A stretch of 64,000 nucleotides of DNA from Dacryopinax spathularia (lineage: Eukaryota; Basidiomycota; Dacrymycetes; Dacrymycetales; Dacrymycetaceae). The first letter of the stretch is position 1. Each line of letters opens with the position of its first letter. Positions 1,131-60,133 of the stretch are shown piece after piece. The notes under the pieces are model-generated. The model was given only the letters and a program-made list of their open reading frames with translations, searched no databases and was not told the DNA's origin. The position numbers and the translations under genes are program-made. The stretch is from assembly GCA_037974965.1 (NCBI GenBank), contig JBBPFI010000001.1, positions 1,550,001 through 1,614,000 on the forward strand. The letters are read 5' to 3'.

Positions 1131-1224
1131 GGTGTCGTGGCCGAGTGGTCTAAGGCGTCTGACTTGAATTTCCTTCGAGATCATATGTGCATCGCACGCG
1201 TAGGTTCAAATCCTGCCGGCACCG
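1131..1224 (+). tRNA. tRNA-Ser(UGA) with a short intron
   Basis: Cloverleaf read by eye. The acceptor arm GGTGTCG pairs with CGGCACC (one G-T pair), followed by discriminator G73, typical of serine tRNAs. The D arm is GCCGAGTGGTCTAAGGC. The anticodon loop starts CTTGAA, giving anticodon TGA for serine UCA codons. A long class II variable arm has a GTGC/GCAC stem. The T arm is GTAGG-TTCAAAT-CCTGC. About 12 nt beyond a normal tRNA-Ser lie just after position 37, where nuclear tRNA introns sit. A run of five T follows, fitting a Pol III terminator. The 3' anticodon strand pairs imperfectly in my fold, so the exact intron edges are uncertain. Confidence 0.85.
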
Positions 1225-43859: not shown

Positions 43860-45758
43860 CTACTTGCCTATGCAAAACTCCTTGAACACCGCATCCAAAA
43901 CATCCTCAATATCGATCAACCCCGTCACCTTCCCAATCTCCTTCGCCGCATACCTCAGCTCCTCCGCAGCAAGCACCACATCCTCCGGCCCTAGCATTAA
44001 TCCAATCAGCACCACTCAAACCTCCCACGCGAATCGAGGCCTGCACATACCCATTGCAAGAAACGCGTCTAAGAACGCCAACGTAGTCTCCAAGTGCGCA
44101 CGATGTCGTGCGTGGGTGACGATCGGCTCGTCCCCCTCCCTCAGCTCATACCGGCTTTTGATGACCCCCGCTAAGCCATCCGTCATCTCCCGCATCCCAT
44201 CGCCTCTCTCCACACTTATCGGCCATAACTTCACCTCTGCGGGAAGGGCCATCCGAGCAAAGTCCAGCAGCTCGGGCAGCTTGAGGGGGTCGACCTCGTC
44301 CGTTTTATTAAGCAACACGACAGTCCGCTCATCGACATATTGGCCAATCATCTCCGGTACTCTGAACCCATTCCCCACGAGCTCAGGCAACGAAAGCACG
44401 CATACAGCCAAGTCGGCCTGCTCGACAGCTGTGCTCGCACGTTGCACGCCGATGGATTCTACTACGTCGGAGGAATGGCGCAGGCCGGCTGTATCCCGGG
44501 CTTTTACGCGGTAGCCGGCGATGTCGAGGGATACTTCGAGGACGTCGCGGGTCGTACCGGGTATGGGGGTGACGATGGCTGCTTCGCGTTGTGCTGCCTT
44601 GCTGTTCAGTGGACTGAAGCCATATTGGAGAGGAAGGGGGCGTACCGAGGTAGTTGAGCAAGCTGCTCTTCCCTGCGTTTGGAGGGCCGAATATAGCGAG
44701 CGACAGCCCACTAGTGTAGATCTCTCCTCTCTGAGAGGGGGAAAGATAATGCTCGATATCCGCTCTCAGCTTGCTCACTCTTTCTCGTGCTGAACCCCGG
44801 GTTAGTCAGTACGAGAAGGGGCAATGTATAATACAACATTCACCTTTGTCCCAAGTCCCCTCTTCTACGTCCTCCCCTTCCCCAAAATCGATCAACGCCT
44901 CCACCGTCGCCAGCGCCAGAACCGCATCCCTCCTCATAGCCTCATACCGCTCCCTCAACCTCCCCTATCCCCCCAATCAGCCCTTCCCTCTCTCTTCAGT
45001 AATGCTCAATAAGCAGCAAAACGCACCTCAGCCCCTCTCCGAGCAGCTCTCCGCTGAACCTCCGTCTCGCTCTCTATCAGGTCCCTCAAAGCCTCGGCTT
45101 GAGTGAGGTCGATCCTCCCTGATTCGAATGCTCTGCGCGTGAACTCTCCTCGTTCGGCTTGTCGTAAGCCGGGAAGGTGGGAGAGGGAGGAGAGAAGACG
45201 GGTGAGGACGGCTGGGGAGGAATGGACGTGCAGCTCTAGGGTGTCTTGCGTCGTGTATGACGCCGGTCCTAGCACCCAAGAATCAGTTAGCCGCAGCTTC
45301 TGCAACCAAGAGGAGAGGACAGCAGACGCACCATGAAAGAACACAGCCAACCCATCATCCACCACCTCCCCATCCCTCGCATCGACGACTTCGCACCTCA
45401 ACAGCCTCGCGTGCTCCAGCCTCTCCCCCTTCTCTTCCGTCTCCTTGCCCTTGCCCTTGCCCTTCCCTTCTATCTCATTCCCCTTGCCCTTGCCCTGCCC
45501 TTGCTCTAATGCCTGGTCCTTGCCGGACTGTTGAGGTCGGCCAAGTCGCCGAACCATACGATCCCATACTGTTTTCGTGTCTGGCCCGGAGACGCGGATA
45601 ACTGCTACGCCCGCTTTTCCGGGTGGGGTCGAGAGGGCGAAGATCGTTTTACGGGTTGAGAGAGGTGATGTAAGGGAGGATGTCGAGGCGGTCGCGAACG
45701 GTCGGGAGGTGGATGCTCGGAGGGTGGGGCCGAGTCCGGTGGCAGAGCGCGCCCACAT
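43860..45758 (-). CDS. MSS1: Mitochondrial tRNA-modification GTPase (MnmE/TrmE family)
   Basis: Mss1/GTPBP3 works with Mto1 to modify uridine 34 of mitochondrial tRNAs. The start [21 protein letters not shown] is a mitochondrial presequence. The TrmE N-terminal domain has [20 protein letters not shown] and [21 protein letters not shown]. The GTPase core shows P-loop [14 protein letters not shown]3 in [13 protein letters not shown] and G4 NKTDEVD. It ends FKEFCIGK, the CxGK signature of MnmE, with TAG at 43860. Odd: a Lys/Gly/Glu-rich insert of about 30 aa ([18 protein letters not shown]) within the N-terminal domain. At least four introns. Confidence 0.93.
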
Positions 45759-46006
45759 CTCGCAGTTTCGCTTTCCCTTTTGAATAACGATACAAGAAGG
45801 AATGGGTAGGAGAACTACTCCGGGTGGGCTATATGCGCGGTATGCTCATTCTCGGAAAGTGTAAGAGCCAAATTGTCAGTCCTTACGGTGGACCCCTACA
45901 TGCGTAATGACGGGACGAAAGCCCCTCCCCCACCCCACACTTAAATGCATACACTTTCATTTTGTCTGTAACTCATACAACAGCCTGGGTACTCAAGAGA
46001 ACGCCC

Positions 46007-47600: not shown

Positions 47601-49451
47601 ATGCGCCTGCAATCTCTTATCTTCTGCATCCTCTGCTTCTCGTCCATAAGCCTAGTCCTCGCTTTCACCCAGCTAGACTCATACACCCCTACAAACCTGC
47701 TACACCATGCCCGGATTGGCGCCTCAGCAGCCTGGCACTATCTCTGTTCTATCTCCTCGCTTGAAGCAACAAGGCCGATAACTGCACTGAGGAAAAGACT
47801 GCAAGAACCGGGGTATCATCAGTGCGTTCTGTCCAAGAAGCCGGCCGCGAACGTATTGGGTGCGAATGGGACCGCGGCTGCAACATGGGGCATTGGGACG
47901 CAAACCACCACGACGATAACGAGGAGCGTACCGAGCGTCTCGGCGACGCTGAATACGGCCTACAATTCCAGCTCGAGCAGTTTGCATAGCTCGACGTCGA
48001 CGAGCAGAACGACGAGCTCGCAGCAGCAGTCTTCAACGACGCGGAGTACGACGAGCTCTGACCCTCCGACCACGACGTCGGATCCTCCACCTACTACTCC
48101 CAACCCACCTCCGCCGCCTGCGATTACGTCAGACCCACCGCCGCCTCCGCCTCCGCCCACTACGACCTCGTCCGCAGCACCGTCTCCAAGCTCGATATGG
48201 AATGTCGTCGAGACTTTCGTGAGTTGCTACGCTGTTCTCAGAGTGGACGTGTGTTGACCATTTGGCAGAGTGGGCAAAACTTCTTCAGCGGTTTCACCTT
48301 CTGGGACCAGAACGTAGACGGCGGTGACCCGACGCACGGTACGTCCCCCATCTTCCTCTTTCCCACTTACAACGCGCTGACATACTCCCAGGAACGGTCG
48401 ACTACGTCGGCTACCAAGATGCGCTCAACCTCGGCCTCATCGGCATCAACCAGCAAAATCACGCCGTCCTAGCCGTCTCGACCGCCGCAGTCGGCTCTAC
48501 CTCCTCCCGCCCCTCAATCCGGATCTCCACAACCCGCACATTCACCGGCGGGCTCCTAGTAGCGGACATAATCCACATGCCCACGGGCTGTGGCACCTGG
48601 CCCAGTTTCTGGACCTGCGGCCCGAACTGGCCGCAAGGTGGGGAAATCGACATTATTGAGGGAATTCATGCGAGCACGATCAATACCGCTAGTGTGCATA
48701 CGAACCCGGGGTGTTATATGCCCGCGGATTACGGGGCGAGCGGGACGCTGCTTTCGCAGCCGCCGGAGGGGCTGGACTGCTCGGCGGCGGAGACGAATGA
48801 TGCGGGGTGTGGGCTGACGGCTAGTGGGGCGAATACGTATGGGGCGGGGTTTAATAGTGCTGGCGGTGGAGTATATGCCAGTACGTCTTCTCCTCCCCTC
48901 TTCAATCCTATCCTATCCTCGCACCCCATCTTCTCCCCCTCCTGCTCTACTCCCTTCTCGCATACCCACGGACCACAGGGCTGATGAGAGTAATCCGCAG
49001 TGCAATGGGACGAAACCGGCATCTACACATTCTTCTTTCCCCGCTCCTCCGTCCCGTCCGACCTAACATCCGGCTATCCCAACCCCTCCTCCTGGGGCGA
49101 GCCAGCGGGCGCCTGGCCAGCAAGCACGTGCAACCCCTACCAATACTTCTACAACCACGTAGCGATATTCGACACTACCCTGTGTGGAGACTGGGCTGGC
49201 GCTACGTGGAATAGTCAGGTGATGGGGCAGGGAGGGGGGACGTGTGCGCAGATTACGGGGGTGGGGGATTGTGAGAGTTATGTTAGGGCGCAGGGGGGCG
49301 CGTTTGCCAGTGCTTGTGAGTTCTCCTTCTTTCTTTTTCTTTTGGTTTTGTTTTTGGTGGGATGTTAGTTGGAAGAAGTGCTGATTTGGTTGGTGTAGAT
49401 TGGGAGATCGCGAGTGTGACGCTGTATCAAAAAGCCGGACAAGGCGCATAG
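47601..49451 (+). CDS. Secreted GH16 beta-glucanase with Ser/Thr/Pro-rich N-terminal region
   Basis: The start MRLQSLIFCILCFSSISLVL is a signal peptide with likely cleavage near LA-F. About 90 aa of unclear sequence and a Ser/Thr/Pro-rich stretch (about 47930-48190) follow. The GH16 domain begins SGQNFFSGFTFWDQNVDGG and includes NHAVLAVSTAAVG and HMPTGCGTWPSFWTCGP. The catalytic motif is GGEIDIIEG (ExDxxE). Later HTNPGCYMP, WDETGIYTFFFPR and YWEIASVTLYQK complete the fold. Such enzymes cut beta-1,3(4)-glucans outside the cell or remodel the wall. Four introns; stop 49449-49451. The Ser/Thr region may be O-mannosylated. Confidence 0.9.
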
Positions 49452-50039: not shown

Positions 50040-51926
50040 ATGGGCGAAACCTCCATGGCCTCCTCATCGTCTCAGTACCCCTACTCTTCTTACTTGGATC
50101 TGGTATACCAACGACCCAACACCAACGCCGATGACGCCCCCATGCGGCCCCTAACACTCGGCTGGGGTCTCTCCCCCGAACTTTACCCACCTACCAGCCA
50201 GCTGGTCTACGAGCCCAGCCTAGTTCCCTGGCTCTTACATCAATTCAACTCGCTTCTGAGTGACCTTCCAAGAGCAAGCGAGACCGTGCAGCAGAAGCTT
50301 CGGGACTGGCGGTGCTCTACCAATCCGGGTGCTTATCCTGAGGATGGCGCACGCGCGCTGCAGGCAGCTTCGATCGCTCTAGCGCAGGATATACTTAGGC
50401 GTCATCCTGCTTTCTCTTCCCTCGGGTACGAGTCCTCTTCCTACGATGACTCAGACGACGTCGAGTCATCCAGCGACTCGGACTCGGAGTCGAGCACCGG
50501 CCCGATCGAGATCCGCGGCGGCATAGAATATCACTGGAAATGGTTCGGTCTTCCCGAAAGGACTCCTATGTTCCAGATCCGGATCGAGCCGGATAACGAA
50601 GAGGACGAGTATGCGACGTTTATCGTTCCTATCTCCCAGGCTCGGGCGGATCGGTATCTGCCGGAGGTGGTGCGCCTTGCCAAAGGGGGTGGGCGGGTAG
50701 AGATGGGTGTGGCAGGGGGAAAGTATGATGTGCACCATTTTCTTCAACTTGTAGGTCATGATTTTTCTGGTGGGTGAGGAAAGTTGAATCGATCAGTTTG
50801 ATGCAGGTCATCCTCCTCGCTTCAGAGAGCCAGACCTCACACGTTCTGCTCACGTCCTACCGAACATCGCTCCTGCTCAGACTCGACCACTCCCACGCCG
50901 ACACACTAATCATCACATGCTCCGATCTCATCACGGACTGCATGATCCTTCCTGCGCTCAACGCTTCGCTTCAAATCGCGTGCATCTGCCCTGTGGATGA
51001 GCTTGATCTCTACCTCGAGCCTCCGTGGAACCGTGCGGCACCTTCGATTGTCGAGCTTGTGCCTAATCGGTCGCAGATCCCTATACCGCTGGATGAGGAA
51101 GTGGACGACGTCCTACCAGATCAGGTATGTTCCGCCTTTCACGATGCTCGTGTTTGCTGATACCCGCACAGATAATTCTCGCTTTTGCGTCATTAGGATC
51201 TATGTCGGCGCACGAGCATTATCTCCTTTCGCGAGCAGGGGATGGTACAGATGACGTGGATAAGAGCCGAACACGGGGCACCGAGCTACGGGACAAGCCG
51301 CCGCTACTTGTTGCATTTCGTCAAATTGGCGAGGGGACGTGTGGCTCGGTATACCTCGCGCACTATGGGCGGCATCGCATAGCCGTCAAGATCTCGCCTA
51401 CCAGCCAGCAGGAAGAACGATCTATGATGCGAGAGTACGAGATCTACCGCCATATCCGGGATGCTGGACTGGAAGGGACGGCTACGCCGCGCTGTTTTGG
51501 CCTTTACAGGTCGGATGACATGATCGTCCTTCTGACGGCGTATGCTGGCTATGCGCTTCAAAAGTTCGGAGACTTGGACATAGAAGACCGGTGATTTTCC
51601 CAGGTTCTGTCCTGATGGCGTGCACTAACAAAGATAATAGGCTTTCCATTTTCCGAGCAGTCAAAACCCTAGCAGACGCCGGCATCCATCAAGGCAGCTT
51701 CGGTCCCCGAAACGTAGTCTGCGACGAACACAACGTATTCCGCATCATCGACTTCCATCGCGGCAGCTTCAAGCGCGGCAGGAAAGCGGACCTGGAGGAC
51801 ATGCATGGGGATTGTTTTCACCTTGAGGGAGAGGATGTGACGGATATGTATTTTGAGACGCTGGAGCTGGATTGGAGGCATGTTGTACCTGTACCTGAGT
51901 CGGATGAACCGGACCTGCTTGCATAA
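50040..51926 (+). CDS. Array gene A: pseudokinase-like protein, type 1
   Basis: Four exons (50040-50750, 50807-51124, 51172-51590, 51641-51926) give 577 aa. The N-terminal half (to about residue 343) is unrecognised. It carries GWGLSPELYPPTSQLVYEP, an acidic SSSDSDSESS patch, and a strand-rich block HVLLTSYRTSLLLRLD with CSDLITDCMILPALNASLQ. The C-terminal half is a protein-kinase fold: glycine loop GEGTCGSVY (near 396), Lys in IAVKIS (416), Glu in MREYEIY, hydrophobic hinge VLLTAYAG, then IHQGSFGPRNVV and IIDF. The catalytic-loop Asp is Ser (502), while Asn507 and Asp520 remain. So ATP and metal binding look possible but phosphotransfer doubtful. I do not recognise a named family. Confidence 0.85.
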
Positions 51927-52346
51927 ACTCAGTTGATGCCGGATTCGGCTTACCCTTCTCAGCGATGCGGAGACTTGTGCCTTAGCAAACGAACCCTCGC
52001 GTTCTCACGAACGCTGAAGACCTTTGCGGGACTGCATAGCTCGTAAAGAGAGGCTTTGCAGAATGCGGCGTAGCCGCAGGATGACTCACTGACTAAGCAG
52101 AACGTGAAACCGACGCCGCGTCGAGTCGTTTGTTTACGGCGGGAAGCCCGTAATTTGCGCCTCTCCGTCTCCAGCGTCGTCACTCGCCACCAAACCCACC
52201 TCAGAGCGAAGAGCTTTTATACTAGTACTGGCGTGACTCACAATGACAAATGTCGAAACGTCTCCTTATACTCTCACTGACCGGGGGCGCCGCACCTTCC
52301 GATGTGCCCCTTTCCTCCCCCTCTTACCTTTTGACGCCAATTCACG
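51927..52346 (+). promoter_or_regulatory. Upstream region of array gene B
   Basis: Contains TGACTCA (52082-52088), TGACTAAGCAG (52090-52100), the block CGTCGTCACTCGCCACCA and GTGACTCACAATGAC (52233-52247). All but the first recur at similar spacing before gene C. An upstream ATG at 52243 opens a 72-codon frame overlapping the gene B start. Confidence 0.6.
52090..52100 (+). promoter_or_regulatory. Shared bZIP/Yap-like element upstream of gene B
   Basis: TGACTAAGCAG, about 257 bp before the gene B start, next to a consensus TGACTCA (AP-1/Gcn4-like) at 52082-52088. Confidence 0.5.
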
Positions 52347-52461
52347 ATGGGCGACGCTCCCCCTACTCCTCCTCCCTCTATGTCTCCCGGGAGCTCATCG
52401 CCTTCTTATTCTGACTTGTTGTGTGGAAAGGGACAGCCCGCACCGGAAGATGCGCCGATGA
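52243..52461 (+). other. Upstream open reading frame overlapping the gene B start
   Basis: A 72-codon frame starting MTNVETSPYTL 104 bp before, and running past, the gene B ATG in another frame. A frame of identical length starts 104 bp before the gene C ATG. If transcribed, it would reduce translation of the main frame. Whether transcription starts upstream of it is unknown. Confidence 0.35.
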
Positions 52462-54298
52462 GGCAGCTCAGGAACAATATTGGCTGGGGACTGGATGCGT
52501 CCATCCATCCCCTCACTGGCTCGCTCGCATACGTGCCGGATATGACATCATGGCTTCTCGCGCAGATGGATGCCATGGCGCTAGATCCCTCCCCACCTAG
52601 CGCACCCGATATCTGCAAGAAAATGCAAGAATGGAGGCAGTCAGCAACACCTGCTGCCTATGCGGAAGACGGTCCGGAGACCCTTCGACAGGTTGTCATC
52701 GAGCTGGCCAATGACATCTTCAAGCGGCATCCTGCTTTCGAGAAGAAAGAGAGCTGTCCTATGCAGCATGACGACGCTGGATGTTCACAGTCGGACGAGG
52801 GAGAACCCAGCGATCGACCATCGTATACGGTCGATACAGTATACGGGTCGCGCATGAATTTCTTCGGCTTACGCAACCGTGATGGGATCCCTGGCCTACA
52901 AACCGACCGTGATGGACGTCAAAGGGCAGTGTTCAGGACTTTCATAGTGGGGCTACCGCAGCAACGGGCGGATCACTATTTGCCTAAGGTCATCGAACTT
53001 GCCAAAGCAGGCGGTGCCTTCCGTATGGGCCTCTCGTCCTCATCGTATGATGTCGACCATCTAGTTCAACTCGTGAGTACGGTCCCATCCGGAAAGGACG
53101 CACATCTTAACCGAACCCATCTCAGGTCGCGGATCTAGCTTCGGATGACACGCCTTGTCATGTGCTTCTGACCTCTTATCATACCTCTATGTTGCTACGC
53201 CTTTCTCGATATTCCGATCGTCGGATTATAGCTTGTTCAGACATCATCAAGGACTGCTCGATTCTTCCTGCTCTACTGTCTTCGTTGCAAGTGGCGTCCG
53301 TGGAACCCTGCGAGTACACCGTGCTCTATCGTGACGCCCCCTGGGCTCGCATACCCGCAGTTGCGGCAAGCCCGCCGCCGGGTCCTATAGCTTCTGGGAG
53401 TCTAGTAGAGCACGTGCAGGAGTTGAAGGATCTGTCAGCTCCTGAGGTAGGCCATCATCTAGACAGCCCGGACGTAGACTGACTGATGCCCAGATCTCAC
53501 TGGCTTTCGCCGCTGCTGGCGATGATTATGCTTCCGAGCAGTATTCTCTTGTGCGAGCAGTTGCCAAGACGCATCCGGCTCACAAATGCTCACAAGAGGA
53601 AGAGGATGATGACAAAGATCTGGCCGATAATCGTTCGCAACGGGAAGAGGATGATGGGTTAGCCAAAAAGCCCGTACTCATCGCCTGTCGCCGCATTGGT
53701 CACGGCACATGTGGGGAGGTCTACCTTGCTCACTATGGCGGTTACCGAATAGCGGTCAAGGTATGCCCATCTGAGCGAGGGGAGACACGCTCCCTCGCCA
53801 ACGAGTACTGGACATATCTGTGGATCCGTGCAGCCGGTCTTGAGGGGAAGGTGACGCCTCGTTGCTTTGGCCTGTACAAATGTAAACGCATGCTTGTGCT
53901 CTTGACGGCGTATTCTGGGACGGCGTTATCAACTTTCCGCAATCTTTGCATAGAAGACAGGCGAGTGCCCTTTACTAAACCGATTTCCACCGAGCTCTTG
54001 CTGAAGACGCGTTTCCAATCTGTCGATCTTCCGCGCAGCTAAGTTGCTTGAAGACAATGGTATCAGGCAGAACAGCTTCAGCCCTCGGAATGTCGTCTGC
54101 GACGAAAACAATGTGTTTCGGATCATCGACTTCCATCGCGGTAGCTATAGGGAAGGTAGGAAAGCCGATGTCAAATCCATGCATCAGGCGTACTTGCTAC
54201 AACCTGGATGGCGTCCATACTACAAGGACAAACTTTGCCTGGATTGGCGTCATATTGTCCCCGTCCCCGAGCCGGACGATCTGCAGTCCTCCGACTAG
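52347..54298 (+). CDS. Array gene B: pseudokinase-like protein, type 2, with altered intron 3 acceptor
   Basis: Exons 52347-53072, 53126-53446, 53494-53960 and probably 54007-54298 give 601 aa. The start MGDAPPTPPPSMSPGSSS leads to GWGLDASIHPLTGSLAYVP and VLLTSYHTSMLLRLSRYSD. An acidic linker (EEEDDDKDLADNRSQREEDD) precedes the kinase-like half: GHGTCGEVY, IAVKVCP, NEYWTY, LLTAYSG, then RQNSFSPRNVV and IIDFHRG. Ser again replaces the catalytic-loop Asp. Intron 3 has a GC donor (gcgagt). The acceptor used by gene C reads ccaa here; an AG at 54006 keeps the frame open and adds four residues (RVSN). If that acceptor is not used, the gene is disabled at this point. Confidence 0.75.
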
Positions 54299-54530
54299 GC
54301 GCTTTGCCCAGGAGTCCTCAGTATCCCTCATCGCGTTCCGCATGTACCTTCGTTTGAGTCAGAACAAAACAAAAACCAACCCACATACTGTTCTGTGGCA
54401 CACCTTACGATCCGACCCGTCGTTAGCCACAGCTGTTCATCATTCGGCTTAACCAGAGCGAGAGTGTGGCGAATACTTGTGACAGCGATCATCATTCGGG
54501 AATTGTTCAGCGAACCGCATTGGTCTATTG
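54299..54530. other. Spacer between gene B and relic X
   Basis: Resembles the DNA after gene C up to an ACAGCGATCA motif, then jumps into relic X. The region matching the first half of gene D is missing. Confidence 0.5.
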
Positions 54531-55368
54531 CAACGCGGCCTCTCTCTCTTCCATTAGGAGAACAAACAGAAATGGGCCAGTTTACCATTGACTCAGGTGC
54601 GTTCTTTCCAGCTAGACGCATTCCGCTTGCTTATTACGGATTAGCTGCAAAACTGCTTTTGCGCCGCTAGGCGCTACTGCGACAGCAGAACGTCATCTAC
54701 TCCATCGCGCGCACGGGAGGGCATCTATAACTGATCATGCCAACTCGACAGTTGCGCTAAATAGCGGTGAGCAAACTCAGTTGATTGCCTTTCGAGAGAT
54801 ACGGGCAGGAACATGCGGCGAAGTGTACTTTGCGTACAACATCGTATAGCGGTCAAGGTGTGCCCTCCTGAACGGAACAAAGCTAGTTCTCTCTTCAACG
54901 AGTACGAAACCTATGGACATATCCGCGCGGCCGGCCTCGAGGGAAAGGCGACATCCCGCTGCTTCGGCTGTACAAGAATGATGATATGGTTGTCTTGTTG
55001 ACTGCGTACTCTGGAATTGCGATATCCGACTTGCGGCGAGCTTTCCTAGAGGACAAGTGAGTTAACGAGTGCCTCTGCGCCTGCAGCCGAGTCTCCCTTT
55101 CCCAGACTGCCGATCTTCCGTTGCACCAAATGGCTTGAAGATAACGGTATCGCTCAGGGAGCTTTCAGTTCTCGAAACGTGGTTGGCGATGAGAACAATA
55201 TATCCCGCATCAACGACTTTCATCGGGCCGGCTTTAAGCGGGGTAGGAAGGCGGATCCGGAGGAACACGCATGGTGACTGTTTGCACCCTGAGGGGGAAG
55301 ATGTGACGGAGATGTCTTTCGAGACGCTGGACTGGAAGCATGTTGTACCTGTAGATGAATTTGATTGA
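54531..55368 (+). pseudogene. Array relic X: 5'-truncated, decayed type 1 copy
   Basis: Closely resembles gene D from late exon 2 onward: AACGCGGCCTC, the MGQFTID stretch and CGTTCTTTCC match D at the nucleotide level. The kinase-like half is recognisable (REIRAGTCGEVYF, RIAVKVCPPERNKASSLF, GIAQGAFSSRNVV), but compared with D there are several small deletions shifting the frame, one within the GTCGEVYFA-Y region and one at RCFG. The DFG-equivalent reads INDF and the tail (EGEDVTEMSFETLDWKHVVPV) is like gene A. The first about 1 kb is absent. A pseudogene of the host array. Confidence 0.85.
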
Positions 55369-55778
55369 ACCGGACTTGCAGGAATAGATTCAGGCGCACC
55401 TTGCAATGCGCCGAGTCCACCGTATCTTCTCGACAAGCCGAGACTTTCGGCCTAGCAGTCGGAGTCTAACGTGATCTTTCGTCCTCTAATGACCATGGGT
55501 GTGACTGCATAGCGGAATGCTGACTAACTGACTAAGCAGAAAGAACGTGAAACCGAAAGAGGCGTTTGTTTGCGCGTCGCGAAGCGTACTTACACTTTCC
55601 GCCTCTCTCTCTCTCCGGCGTCGTCACTCGCCACCAACCGCAAGGCTAACACGTTGATAACGGCGTGACTCACAATGACGGAAATCTTTACTTATATCTT
55701 GGATGGTAAGAGTCGCCGCGGCTTCCGTGCTCTTTTCTCCCCTTTTCCTCACCTGTTCGGCGCCAACTTGAACCCACA
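55369..55778 (+). promoter_or_regulatory. Upstream region of array gene C
   Basis: Matches the gene B upstream region in order: TGACTAACTGACTAAGCAG (55521-55539), AACGTGAAACCGA, CGTCGTCACTCGCCACCA, GTGACTCACAATGAC (55665-55679). The duplication therefore carried the promoter with the gene. Confidence 0.6.
55529..55539 (+). promoter_or_regulatory. Shared bZIP/Yap-like element upstream of gene C
   Basis: TGACTAAGCAG preceded by a second TGACTAA at 55521-55527, about 250 bp before the gene C start. Confidence 0.5.
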
Positions 55779-55893
55779 ATGGGCGACGCTCCCCCCACTC
55801 CTCCGCCGTCCACGTCTGCCATGGACCCATCGCCTTCTTACTCTGACTTCTTGTATGGAAAGGGACACTCCGCACCAGAGGATGCGCCGATGA
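55675..55893 (+). other. Upstream open reading frame overlapping the gene C start
   Basis: A 72-codon frame starting MTEIFTYILDG, at the same -104 offset and with the same length as the one at gene B. The part over the main gene is constrained by the main frame, so sequence similarity there is not independent evidence. Confidence 0.35.
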
Positions 55894-57779
55894 GGCGGCT
55901 CAGGGACAACATCGGCTGGGGTCTGGATGCGAGCCTCCGCCCCCTCACTGGCTCGCTCTCATACGTGCCGGACATGACCTCGTGGCTTCTCGCGCAGATG
56001 GATTCCCTGGTGAAAGACATGTTGCCGCCTAGCGCTCCGGATTTATTAGAGAGCCTACGAGAATGGAGACAGTCGGCGACACCTGCTGCCTATTCGGAAG
56101 ACGGTCCGGAGGCCCTTCGAAAGGTTGTCATCGAGCTTGCCAAAGACCTTTTCGAACGGCATCTCGCTTTCAAGAAGAAAGGAAGGCGGCCTCTTTCAAG
56201 CGACGGCGATGCATGTGCACAATCGGACGATGGAGGTCCCAGCCGCCCGCTTTCATGTATGGTCCGCACAGAGTACGGGTCGACCGAGAAATTTTTCGGC
56301 TTGCCCGGCGGTCACAATACGATCTGCGGCCTACGAACCGACCGTGTTGGACACCTCGGGCGCACATTCAAGACTTTCATAGTGGGGCTACCGCAGCAAC
56401 GGGCAGATCACTATTTGCCGGAGGTCGTTGAACTCGCCAAATCCGCTGGTGCCTTTCGTATGGGCGTCTCCTCCTCAGAGTACGATGTCAACCATCTAAT
56501 TCAACTAGTGAGTCAGTTCCCCGACCGCAAAGGACGCATATCTCAATCTGACCCACCTCAGGTCGCGGATCTAGCTTCGGATGACAAGCCTTGTAATGTG
56601 CTTCTGACCTCTTATCACACCTCGATGCTGCTGCGACTTTCTCGATATTCCGATCGTCGGATTATAGCATGCTCGGATATCATCAAGGACTGCTCGATCC
56701 TTCCTGCTCTACTGTCCTCGTTGCAGGTCGCGTCCGTGGAACCGTGCGAGTACACCGTGCTCTACCGTGACGCACCCTGGGCTCGCATACCTGCAGTTGC
56801 GGCAAGCCCACCGCCGGGTCCTATAGCTTCTGGAAATCTAAGAGAGAACGCGCAGGAGTTGGAAGATTTATCGGCTCCTAAGGTAGGCCATCATACGGGG
56901 AGCCAGGACGGATATTGACTGTAGTCCAGATTTCACTGGCTTTCGCAGGTGTTGGCGATGATTATGCTTCCGAGCACTATTCTCTCGTGCGCGTAGCTGC
57001 GGGGACGGAACGACCTCATAAATGTTCGCAAGAGGAAGAGGATGATGACATAGATCTGGCTGATGGTTGCTCGCAACGGGAAGAGGATGATGGCACAGAT
57101 TTGGCTGATAATCGTCCGCAATTGGAAGAGTACGATGGGTCAGTCCAAAAGCCCGTACTTGTCGCCTGTCGCCAGATTGGTCACGGCACATGTGGGGAGG
57201 TCTACCTTGCTCACTACGGCCGTTACCGAATAGCAGTCAAGGTGTGCCCCTCTGAGCGAGGGGAGGCGCGCTCCCTCTCCAACGAGTATCAGACATATCT
57301 GCGTATCCGTGCAGCCGGTCTTGAGGGGAAGGTGACGCCTCGTTGCTTTGGGCTATACAAATGTCATCGCATGCTTGTGCTCTTGACGGCGTACTCTGGG
57401 ACGGCCTTAACGACTTTCGAGAATCTTTGCATAGAAGACAGGCGAGTGCCTTTTCCTAAGCCGGTTGCCACTGAGTTCTTGCTGAAAACGCGATTCCAGT
57501 CTGTCGATCTTCCGTGCAGCTAAGTTGCTTGAAGACAATGGAATCAGGCAGAACAGCTTCAGCCCTCGGAACGTCGTCTGCGACGAGAACCATGTGTTTC
57601 GAATCATCGACTTCCATCGCGGCACATATAAGAAAGGTCGGAAAGCCGCCGTCAAATCCATGCGTGACGAGTATTTCCTTCCACCTGGATGGCGTGCGTG
57701 GCGCAACGACAAACTGTACTTGGATTGGCATCATGTTGTCCCAATACCGGAGTCGAACGATCTGCAATCCCCCGACTAA
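55779..57779 (+). CDS. Array gene C: pseudokinase-like protein, type 2
   Basis: Exons 55779-56507, 56562-56882, 56930-57441 and 57500-57779 give 613 aa. The start MGDAPPTPPPSTSAMDPSPS and layout match gene B; exon 2 is almost identical to that of B, while exon 1 differs more. The acidic linker has one extra unit of about 18 aa compared with B (SQREEDDGTDLADNRPQ-type). The kinase-like half shows GHGTCGEVY, IAVKVCP, NEYQTY, then RQNSFSPRNVV and IIDFHRG: the catalytic-loop Asp is Ser, the metal-binding Asn and Asp remain. Intron 3 has a GC donor (gcgagt) and a proper ccag acceptor at 57499. The frame is open throughout. Confidence 0.82.
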
Positions 57780-58229
57780 GTCTGGGCGCTTTACCTAGGG
57801 ATCCTGAGTCATGGCGTTCCATGTACTTTCGTCTGAGTAAAGACCAAAAATGTATATAAAGCTCCCGAGAATAAGCCACAAACTCATACCCCGATGCTCC
57901 AATGTGTTCGTCGTTATGCACAATCGGATAAGGAGTGAGGGAATGGTCGTAACAGCGATCAATCTCGCATTGGGCCGACCTTCTTGGGGCCAGGTAGTCA
58001 TTTGTTCCCGCAAATCTCGGGCGGCGGCATGAGTTACTCACTAACTCCGGCCTCGTGCAACCAGGCTGGCAAGCGCACTCAGCACACGCGTTCCATCTTT
58101 ATAGAAGCTACTAAGAGTCATCCTGACACAGCAGCGGTTGTGATCCACGTATTTTATCTGGAGGATCTTGCTTGCGGACAAGGAATACACAGGCCATCTC
58201 CCTGCGATACCATCCGAGACATCTCCATC
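57780..58229 (+). promoter_or_regulatory. Upstream region of array gene D
   Basis: Contains TATATAAA at 57853-57860, about 370 bp before the D start, and a weaker TTACTCACTAAC at 58034-58045. The exact TGACTAAGCAG of A, B and C was not found. An in-frame open stretch extends upstream of the chosen start without similarity to the other copies. Confidence 0.45.
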
Positions 58230-60133
58230 ATGGGAGATAACCCTCTCAGTGCATCTCCCGTGCTCACCTCTGCATCCTCTTTGCCATCTTATCTGGACTT
58301 TCTTAAGGAGAAGACGTACACGGAATTCGACGCACCCATGTGTGGGCTGTCTCCTGGCTGGGGTCTGAAGCCAGACCTCTACCCACCGACAGGCTCCGTT
58401 GTCTATGACCCCAAAATCGTTCCCTGGCTCACTGAGCAGTTCGAAAACTTGATCAGAGGCCTCCCTGCTCCGGCTGATGATGTACGTGAAAAAATGACCA
58501 AGTGGAGACTCGCAGCAACCAAGGGCGCATATCCTGAGGATGGAGTTGATGCCCTGCTTGGTTTGGTGAGGAGTATGGCGGAAGATATCCTGAAACGACA
58601 CTCTGCGTTCAAGGTCAACACGTCACCATCGAAGGAGACTGAGGTTCCGCCAGCCGATACCGCGGAGAGTCAAAAGGCTAGCAGCGAGAAGGATGACCCT
58701 AGTGACATTAGCGTGGAGGAGCTTTGGCACGTTTCCCCCAAAATGTTCGGTTCTCCCGGAAGGCAGCGAGTACGCAACATTCGAATGGAGCGAGCCTCCA
58801 TGTCAAATGGACGAGGGCTAGGGGCGCATATGACTCTCTTCACCCCGCTCACCCAGGAGCGGGCGGCTGTTTATATCCCCAAAATTCTCGGCCTCGCCAA
58901 GGAGGGCGCTTCCTTCCAGATGGGCGTGTCTTCTTCAAGATTTGACGTCAGCCACCTTCTCCAGCTGGTGCGTCTCGCACTACCGAACATTCATGATAAA
59001 GCTAATCTCCCCTAGATCGCCCGTACAGCCCAGGGAACGGAACCATGCCATATACTCCTCACGTCATATCACACTTCGATATTGCTTCGCCTGTCCCGCT
59101 CCTCTGGAGGTGCATTCATTACATGCTCAGATATCATTAAGGATTGCTTGATCTTGCCTGCCCTGCTGTGTTCGCTTCAGTTCGCATGTCTCGGTCCGAT
59201 CCAGGAGTCTGCGCTGTACAGCGGAGTGCCTTGGTTCTCTTCGTCTCCCAAATCACCTCCTTTGGAACGCGGCCTCGTTCTCTACCGGGACGAGGACAAG
59301 CAGAAAATGACCGATTTCCCATTAGCTCAGGTGTGTTCTTTCCCGCTAGACCCATTCTTGCGCCTGCTTATCACGCAATAGTTCGTCCTTGCTTTTGCGC
59401 CGCTCGGCTCCACTCGCGCAGCAGAACATCATCTTCTCCATCGCACGCAGGGGAAGGCATCTACAACTGATCAGGCCAACTCGACAGATGGGGTCAATAG
59501 CGGAGACCAACCTCTGTTGACTGCCTTCCGTGAGATAGGGGCAGGAACATGCGGCAGAGTGTACTTGGCGCACTATGGTCGACATCATATAGCGGTCAAG
59601 GTGTGCCCTCCTGAAGAGGACGAAGATAGTTCCCTCTTCAATGAGTACGAAATCTATGGACATATTCGCGCGGCCGGCCTCGAGGGAAAGGTGACACCCC
59701 GCTGCTTTGGGCTGTACAAGAATGATGATATGGTTGTCTTGTTGACTGCGTACTCTGGAGTTGCGATATCCGACTTCGGCGAGCTTTCCATAGAGGACAG
59801 GTGAGTTAACGTACTGCCTTTGCGCTTGCAGCTGAGATTCTCTTTTCCAGGCTGTCGATCTTCCGCTGTGCCAAAGCGCTTGAAGATAAGGGTATCTGTC
59901 AGGGGAGCTTCAGCCCTCGAAACGTGGTCTGCGATGAGAACAACATATTCCGCATCATCGACTTTCATCGAGGCACCCTCCAGCGGGATAGGAAAGCCGA
60001 CCTCGAACGCATGCACGAGATCTACTTCGATAGGTTGGAGTTGGACTGGCGGCATGTTGTTCCTCTACCAGAATCGGATGACTCCGACTTGCAAGAGGCG
60101 GCCCCGTCGTCTACTGAAACTGTACCAGAATGA
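58230..60133 (+). CDS. Array gene D: pseudokinase-like protein, type 1
   Basis: Exons 58230-58967, 59016-59330, 59382-59800 and 59851-60133 give 584 aa; splice positions and phases equal those of A, B and C. The start MGDNPLSASPVLTSASSLPS was chosen by alignment with B and C. GWGLKPDLYPPTGSVVYDPK and HILLTSYHTSILLRLSRSSG with CSDIIKDCLILPALLCSLQ mark the N-terminal region. The kinase-like half shows GAGTCGRVY, IAVKVCPPEEDEDSSLFNEY, VLLTAYSG, CQGSFSPRNVV and IIDFHRG. Again Ser stands for the catalytic-loop Asp. Intron 3 has a normal GT donor. The tail adds EAAPSSTETVPE. Confidence 0.85.

Follow-up and report, generated by a model that had tools for sequence, protein, structure and literature searches.

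A head-to-tail array of putative pseudokinase genes confined to one locus of Dacryopinax spathularia

Why should a fungus carry, side by side, four long paralogous genes and the remains of a fifth, and what might their proteins do? This is the question raised by positions 50040-60133 (+ strand) of a stretch of 64,000 nucleotides of Dacryopinax spathularia DNA, henceforth the window (NCBI GenBank assembly GCA_037974965.1, contig JBBPFI010000001.1, positions 1,550,001 to 1,614,000 of the forward strand), where four intact genes, A, B, C and D, and a relic, X, follow one another head to tail. The answer that we propose, and to which we give an even chance, is that the array encodes a family of two-part proteins, confined to this locus, whose C-terminal part would be a nucleotide-binding pseudokinase working as a non-catalytic switch or scaffold.

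Layout and splicing of the array

The models of the four genes were built on homology and splice signals. The features on which the argument rests are the following:

50040-51926, + strand: gene A, 577 amino acids; exons 50040-50750, 50807-51124, 51172-51590, 51641-51926 (splicing and alignment)
50040-51124, + strand: first two exons of A, encoding the N-terminal region (343 amino acids), with counterparts in B, C and D
51172-51926, + strand: exons 3-4 of A, linker and short kinase-like domain, with counterparts in B, C and D
52347-54298, + strand: gene B, 601 amino acids; exons 52347-53072, 53126-53446, 53494-53960, 54007-54298
54528-55379 (about), + strand: relic X, D-type 5' part and A-type 3' end, frame broken (blastn)
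55779-57779, + strand: gene C, 613 amino acids; exons 55779-56507, 56562-56882, 56930-57441, 57500-57779
58230-60133, + strand: gene D, 584 amino acids; exons 58230-58967, 59016-59330, 59382-59800, 59851-60133

An earlier note, made from the letters of the window, had described a head-to-tail array of four full-length genes and one relic, and this description is confirmed by splicing, by alignment and by protein identities of 47-78% (A-B 47%; A-C, A-D, B-D and C-D 50%; B-C 78%). The relationship of the copies is far beyond chance, a search of the genome with protein C giving E-values of 1.3e-106 for exon 1 of B and 1.0e-57 for exons 1-2 of D. Each gene has three introns of 46-58 nucleotides at matching places, and their phases are 0, 0 and 2 in all four. 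The further claim that splice positions were identical turns out to be nearly, but not wholly, true, because an acceptor is shifted by 12 nucleotides in B. Intron 3 opens with a GC donor, in place of GT, both in B (53961-54006) and in C (57442-57499), and the CAG acceptor of C has become CAA in B. We have therefore modelled intron 3 of B with an in-frame AG located 12 nucleotides upstream, which would add four amino acids.

Two further observations were made on B and C. Their third exons (53494-53960 and 56930-57441) encode an acidic linker built of repeat units of about 15 amino acids, more extended in C than in B, and inspection of the protein sequences of A and D disclosed no such units. 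Upstream of B, an element of 18 nucleotides (52230-52247, + strand) is identical to one upstream of C (55662-55679, + strand); it contains the heptamer TGACTCA, at -113 from the ATG of both genes, which we take to be an AP-1/Gcn4-like site. A second TGACTCA lies at -265 of B, and the heptamer is absent from the 400 bases upstream of A and of D.

The kinase-like C-terminal part

The last 190 residues or so of A, B, C and D match protein kinases weakly, up to and including the DF motif, with Pfam PF00069 E-values of 1.8e-5 for A (residues 392-522), 0.014 for B, 0.022 for C and 0.0041 for D. The glycine-rich loop and the VK lysine are kept, as are the asparagine that follows the catalytic loop and the aspartate of DFG. 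In the numbering of A, K416, E431, S502, N507 and D520 are invariant in all four proteins, E431 being taken as the helix-C glutamate from its place in the sequence and not from a structure; the roles of the lysine, glutamate, asparagine and aspartate of these motifs in kinases are established knowledge. HRD has been replaced by Q[GN]S in the four proteins, which puts a serine in the place of the catalytic aspartate, and DFG has become DFH. After DFH there remain 53-55 residues in each protein and no full C-lobe (activation segment, APE, helices F-I). Since all four end at this same distance, shortly after a shared motif, LDW[RH]H[VI]VP, the later C-lobe must be regarded as missing rather than as mis-modelled. 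The two-part protein of the earlier note, a divergent kinase-like domain placed behind an N-terminal region without family assignment, is supported, and the domain is devoid of the catalytic aspartate.

Other libraries were compared as well. When a profile of the four proteins was compared with the PDB, the 41 sequences obtained at E<=1 included kinases over the kinase part. The match to CSK (E 0.011) covers the N-lobe up to DF and sets HRDL against q-g-s-f of the array. In the same comparison, chains of RPB4 appeared over profile positions 111-224 (E 0.26-0.43) and were taken as chance. The PADLOC family mad6 matches the four proteins, always over the kinase N-lobe (E 1.5e-6 to 0.0027), and MkoA matches A (E 0.033). 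With moderate confidence, we read A to D, from the residues that they keep and lose, as pseudokinases that may still bind nucleotide.

Several facts weigh against this reading. The four PF00069 matches all lie under the gathering score of 31.7 bits, three of them with an E-value above 0.001. The earlier note had suggested profile search and structure prediction as a check; the profiles did return kinases, weakly as we have seen, whereas the two AlphaFold models, of the N-terminal region (from an alignment of seven rows) and of the kinase part, are poor, with a mean predicted local distance difference test score (pLDDT) of 33 and 38, respectively. No residue of the kinase part reaches 70. Its low-confidence model does suggest the order of strands and helices of a kinase N-lobe, yet at such values neither fold is verified and both models are too poor for a fold search. 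Finally, some kinases that do not have the canonical aspartate are active. The array might indeed encode active atypical kinases, or some other kind of nucleotidyl transferase, in which other residues would have replaced the aspartate of HRD. The invariance of the lysine, the glutamate, the asparagine, the aspartate of DF and the serine that stands in the aspartate's place would agree with this, as would the weak resemblance (E 0.057-0.21) that A and D bear, around the catalytic loop, to the KDO/RfaY type of small kinase. With the catalytic aspartate replaced in four proteins out of four and most of the C-lobe gone, we hold such an activity to be quite unlikely.

How, then, would a pseudokinase of this sort work? 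Judging from the residues retained, the kinase part would bind adenosine triphosphate (ATP) and a metal ion without transferring phosphate. Binding or release of the nucleotide, or of a partner, would alter the contact of the kinase part with the N-terminal region, the latter acting as the output or recognition part, and, if pseudokinases already studied are a guide, the whole protein would serve as a switch or scaffold under such regulation. If this proved true, the locus would offer a compact family whose deletion, in a single step, would address the function of a pseudokinase of this kind, and the front part of its proteins would either represent a novel fold or lie at the far edge of one already described.

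The N-terminal region and the turnover of copies

The N-terminal region, of about 340 amino acids, is conserved in patches across the four proteins, for example DAPM, GWGL, LLTSY.TS.LLRL and CSD.I.DC.ILPAL. No Pfam family matches it beyond chance in A to D at E<=10 (AF-4, E 4.6, being all that was obtained with the region of A), and the region of A has no match in the PDB at the same threshold. PHROGs returned one match per protein (E 0.015-0.39), each to a family of unknown function, and the NCBIfam tRNA-intron lyase family was matched by A at E 0.22. A more intriguing case is that of residues 110-242 of D (58557-58955), which match Csx7, a CRISPR RAMP family of NCBIfam (TIGR02581), at E 5.1e-5, or 2.9e-6 when the stretch is taken alone, and Csm3 in PADLOC at E 0.016. 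At E<=10 the Csx7 match is absent from the parts of A, B and C that align with it, from D reversed and from the three shuffled versions taken out of a set of five. It is thus specific to the letters of D, and we take it as chance or, at most, as a resemblance at the level of the fold. Membership of the Csx7 family is not supported: the match occurs in one paralogue of four and scores 23 bits with the whole protein and 27.1 with the stretch, far under the curated cut-off of 108.05, so that nothing is built here on a RAMP identity. N-myristoylation of the MG start that the proteins share was likewise considered and dropped, because an acidic residue, which disfavours this modification, follows it.

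The relic X tells us how the array may have changed. Its first 701 bases (54528-55228) are 84% identical to 59262-59974 of D, and over its last 224 bases (55156-55379) it shares 79% identity with the 3' end of A (51692-51918), both by blastn; on these alignments, X is a chimera of a D-type and an A-type stretch. It contains internal stops and, compared with D, lacks bases at five places (3, 7, 1, 1 and 1) and carries a single extra one. The differences from D are spread evenly over the codon positions (36/31/34 out of 201/202/200), which fits neutral decay, without selection; 15 of 97 intron positions differ as well. Parts of the sequence that runs from the end of X to the start of C resemble the sequence between A and B. 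The simplest history would be a tandem duplication of the A-B pair, giving X-C, after which the front of the second A would have been overwritten by a D-type stretch. In this history copies would arise and die through unequal recombination inside the array, and the chimera would have preserved a record of a process that both makes and kills them. The tandem turnover announced in the earlier note is found here, with one dead chimeric copy and one younger pair, B-C, 78% identical.

This younger pair allows us to ask what selection has retained. Judged by its substitutions, it is under purifying selection overall: the ratio omega of non-synonymous (dN) to synonymous (dS) divergence is 0.38 over 597 codons (95% bootstrap interval 0.30-0.48), the differences fall 80/72/141 over the three codon positions, and dN is lower than dS in 13 of 13 blocks. 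The rate is uneven along the gene, with dN as low as 0.019 and 0.030 in two blocks of 50 codons that cover most of exon 2 and a peak of 0.365 in one block of 45 codons in exon 1. As for the remaining five pairs, dS is saturated in four and amounts to 2.55 for A-D.

These figures bear on two other ways of understanding the locus. The genes may take part in internal or external conflict, in self/non-self recognition or in defence, with the array as a source of diversity; the earlier note had called such an expansion typical of genes in conflict or environmental response. Such a role is compatible with the tandem turnover, and the birth and death of copies with a chimeric relic, the identity of 47-50% between most copies, the acidic repeats of variable length in B and C and the contrast in dN between the exon 1 block and exon 2 would all be in keeping with it. 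Purifying selection overall and a dN lower than dS in every block of the B-C comparison speak against this role, as does the location of the array in the middle of its contig (C1, at about 1.60 of 3.15 Mb), and we deem it unlikely. Alternatively, the whole family could be in decay, X being dead and B already damaged through the loss of a splice acceptor. Here the four full-length frames, the omega of the B-C pair and the in-frame alternative acceptor that B retains make the proposal very unlikely. The switch or scaffold outlined above remains the account that we prefer.

Relatives, neighbours and known systems

The expansion had also been thought to be lineage-specific. The part of this claim that stands concerns the present genome (29.2 Mb in 24 contigs, protein searches scoring the best candidates only), where nothing significant was found outside the array with four queries. 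With C, all 16 matches fell inside the array and no copy elsewhere, and so did 16 of 17 with A, the other, on contig C2, having an E-value of 0.83; the same is true of 11 out of 11 with the kinase part of D and of 7 out of 7 with its N-terminal part. The viral and the prokaryotic contigs were each scanned with two short peptide patterns, which matched 38 and 31 times, and none of these matches was confirmed. The libraries searched gave no full-length match to a well-characterised family of constant copy number, which is what the earlier note had named as contrary to its view. Nor was a description of the array family found in the literature searched, which comprised few subscription journals, or in the parts consulted of PMC3937382 and PMC12881547.

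The flanks of the array look ordinary, as far as can be judged from pieces of genes rather than from full models. They include:

45006-45845, - strand: match to TrmE_N, E 9.4e-28
just upstream of the array: match to glycosyl hydrolase 16, E 0.0019, under the cut-off of that family
downstream of the array: match to a major facilitator superfamily transporter, E 2.6e-9

Some observations of a general kind may be recorded at this point. Rfam places a transfer RNA (tRNA) gene of 94 nucleotides at 1131-1224 (+ strand), which ARAGORN missed with its bacterial setting; its length suggests that it perhaps contains an intron. Conversely, the tRNA-Glu that ARAGORN places at 47991-48080 (- strand), inside an open frame upstream of the glycosyl hydrolase 16 match, is likely false. 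Elsewhere in the genome, three 5S ribosomal RNA genes with equal scores, 23.1 and 11.56 kb apart, are found at C15:1220-36024, a spacing which suggests that 5S genes lie inside the ribosomal DNA repeat.

Among known systems, the fungal kinases FunK1 (PF17667) deserve particular attention. The genome contains 39 stretches that match PF17667, a profile which also finds matches in 6 of 14 control prokaryotes; 34 of them, on contig C9 between 346 and 574 kb, form a cluster of genes and fragments. From their sequences, the three stretches on C12, C6 and C10 seem to be kinases of the ordinary sort. A frame beside the cluster, C9:449072-450844, reads like the gag/integrase of a retrotransposon. Five FunK1 sequences were compared with the array, four modelled from C9 (where five were tried) and one from C14. 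In FunK1 as in the array, a kinase comes after a long N-terminal region, a layout that raises the suspicion of common descent, and both are clustered in this genome. The array might then be a highly diverged and shortened offshoot of FunK1, sharing its N-terminal domain. Besides the cluster on C9 and the common order of parts, hhalign gives E 0.0016 between the kinase parts and 0.051 between the N-terminal regions, and introns 1 and 2 of the FunK1 models F483 and F553 are in phase 0 as well, in roughly corresponding regions but at other aligned residues.

The other results do not support such a descent. PF17667 has no match to any of the four proteins at E<=10, nor to the DNA of the array at E<=1. 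A mismatched pairing, the array kinase against the FunK1 N-terminal region, reaches E 0.017 and so beats the pairing of the two N-terminal regions, the reverse mismatch giving 0.65. When all five FunK1 sequences are used, the values are 0.0069 for the kinase stretch and 0.16 for the N-terminal regions, and 0.6 with the C14 sequence alone. Against 1000 shuffled sequences, the array profile listed one of the five FunK1 sequences, at E 35 and under many of the shuffles, and the FunK1 profile listed none of the four array proteins at E<=50. These tests, run on four and five sequences, have little power. Descent from FunK1 seems unlikely to us, though a distant link keeps some probability, and neither the hhalign controls nor the shuffle searches support a FunK1-like domain in the N-terminal region. 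Beyond a weak resemblance of the kinases, no significant similarity to FunK1 was obtained. The motifs themselves differ, HRD being kept in the four C9 models and LRD present in the fifth sequence, where the array has Q[GN]S.

The pseudokinase reading of the array can finally be placed among better known families. Canonical protein kinases (PF00069, with CSK as the best PDB match of the four-protein profile) share with the array the glycine-rich loop, the VK lysine, the asparagine and DF, which align, and differ from it by Q[GN]S, by DFH, by the later C-lobe that the array does not possess and by scores that remain under the gathering threshold. Small kinases exist as well, the KDO kinase/RfaY type and also Bud32; with regard to the former, the E-values of the array are far under the curated cut-offs, and the array is without the catalytic aspartate.

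A last comparison is offered as a long shot. Since the Csx7 and Csm3 matches of D hint at it, the N-terminal part could be a domain of a new kind, whose fold might be RNA-binding-like and of the RAMP type, and the array would then encode fast-turning, pseudokinase-gated proteins of recognition or cell death, in the manner of MLKL or of the kinase-pseudokinase resistance proteins of plants, with an independent origin. Pfam finds no HeLo or four-helix-bundle family, of the kind to be compared with MLKL, in the N-terminal region. MLKL is a pseudokinase with a switch role, according to PMC12881547. What the array would have in common with it is a manner of working, that of a pseudokinase set beside an output part, rather than homology.

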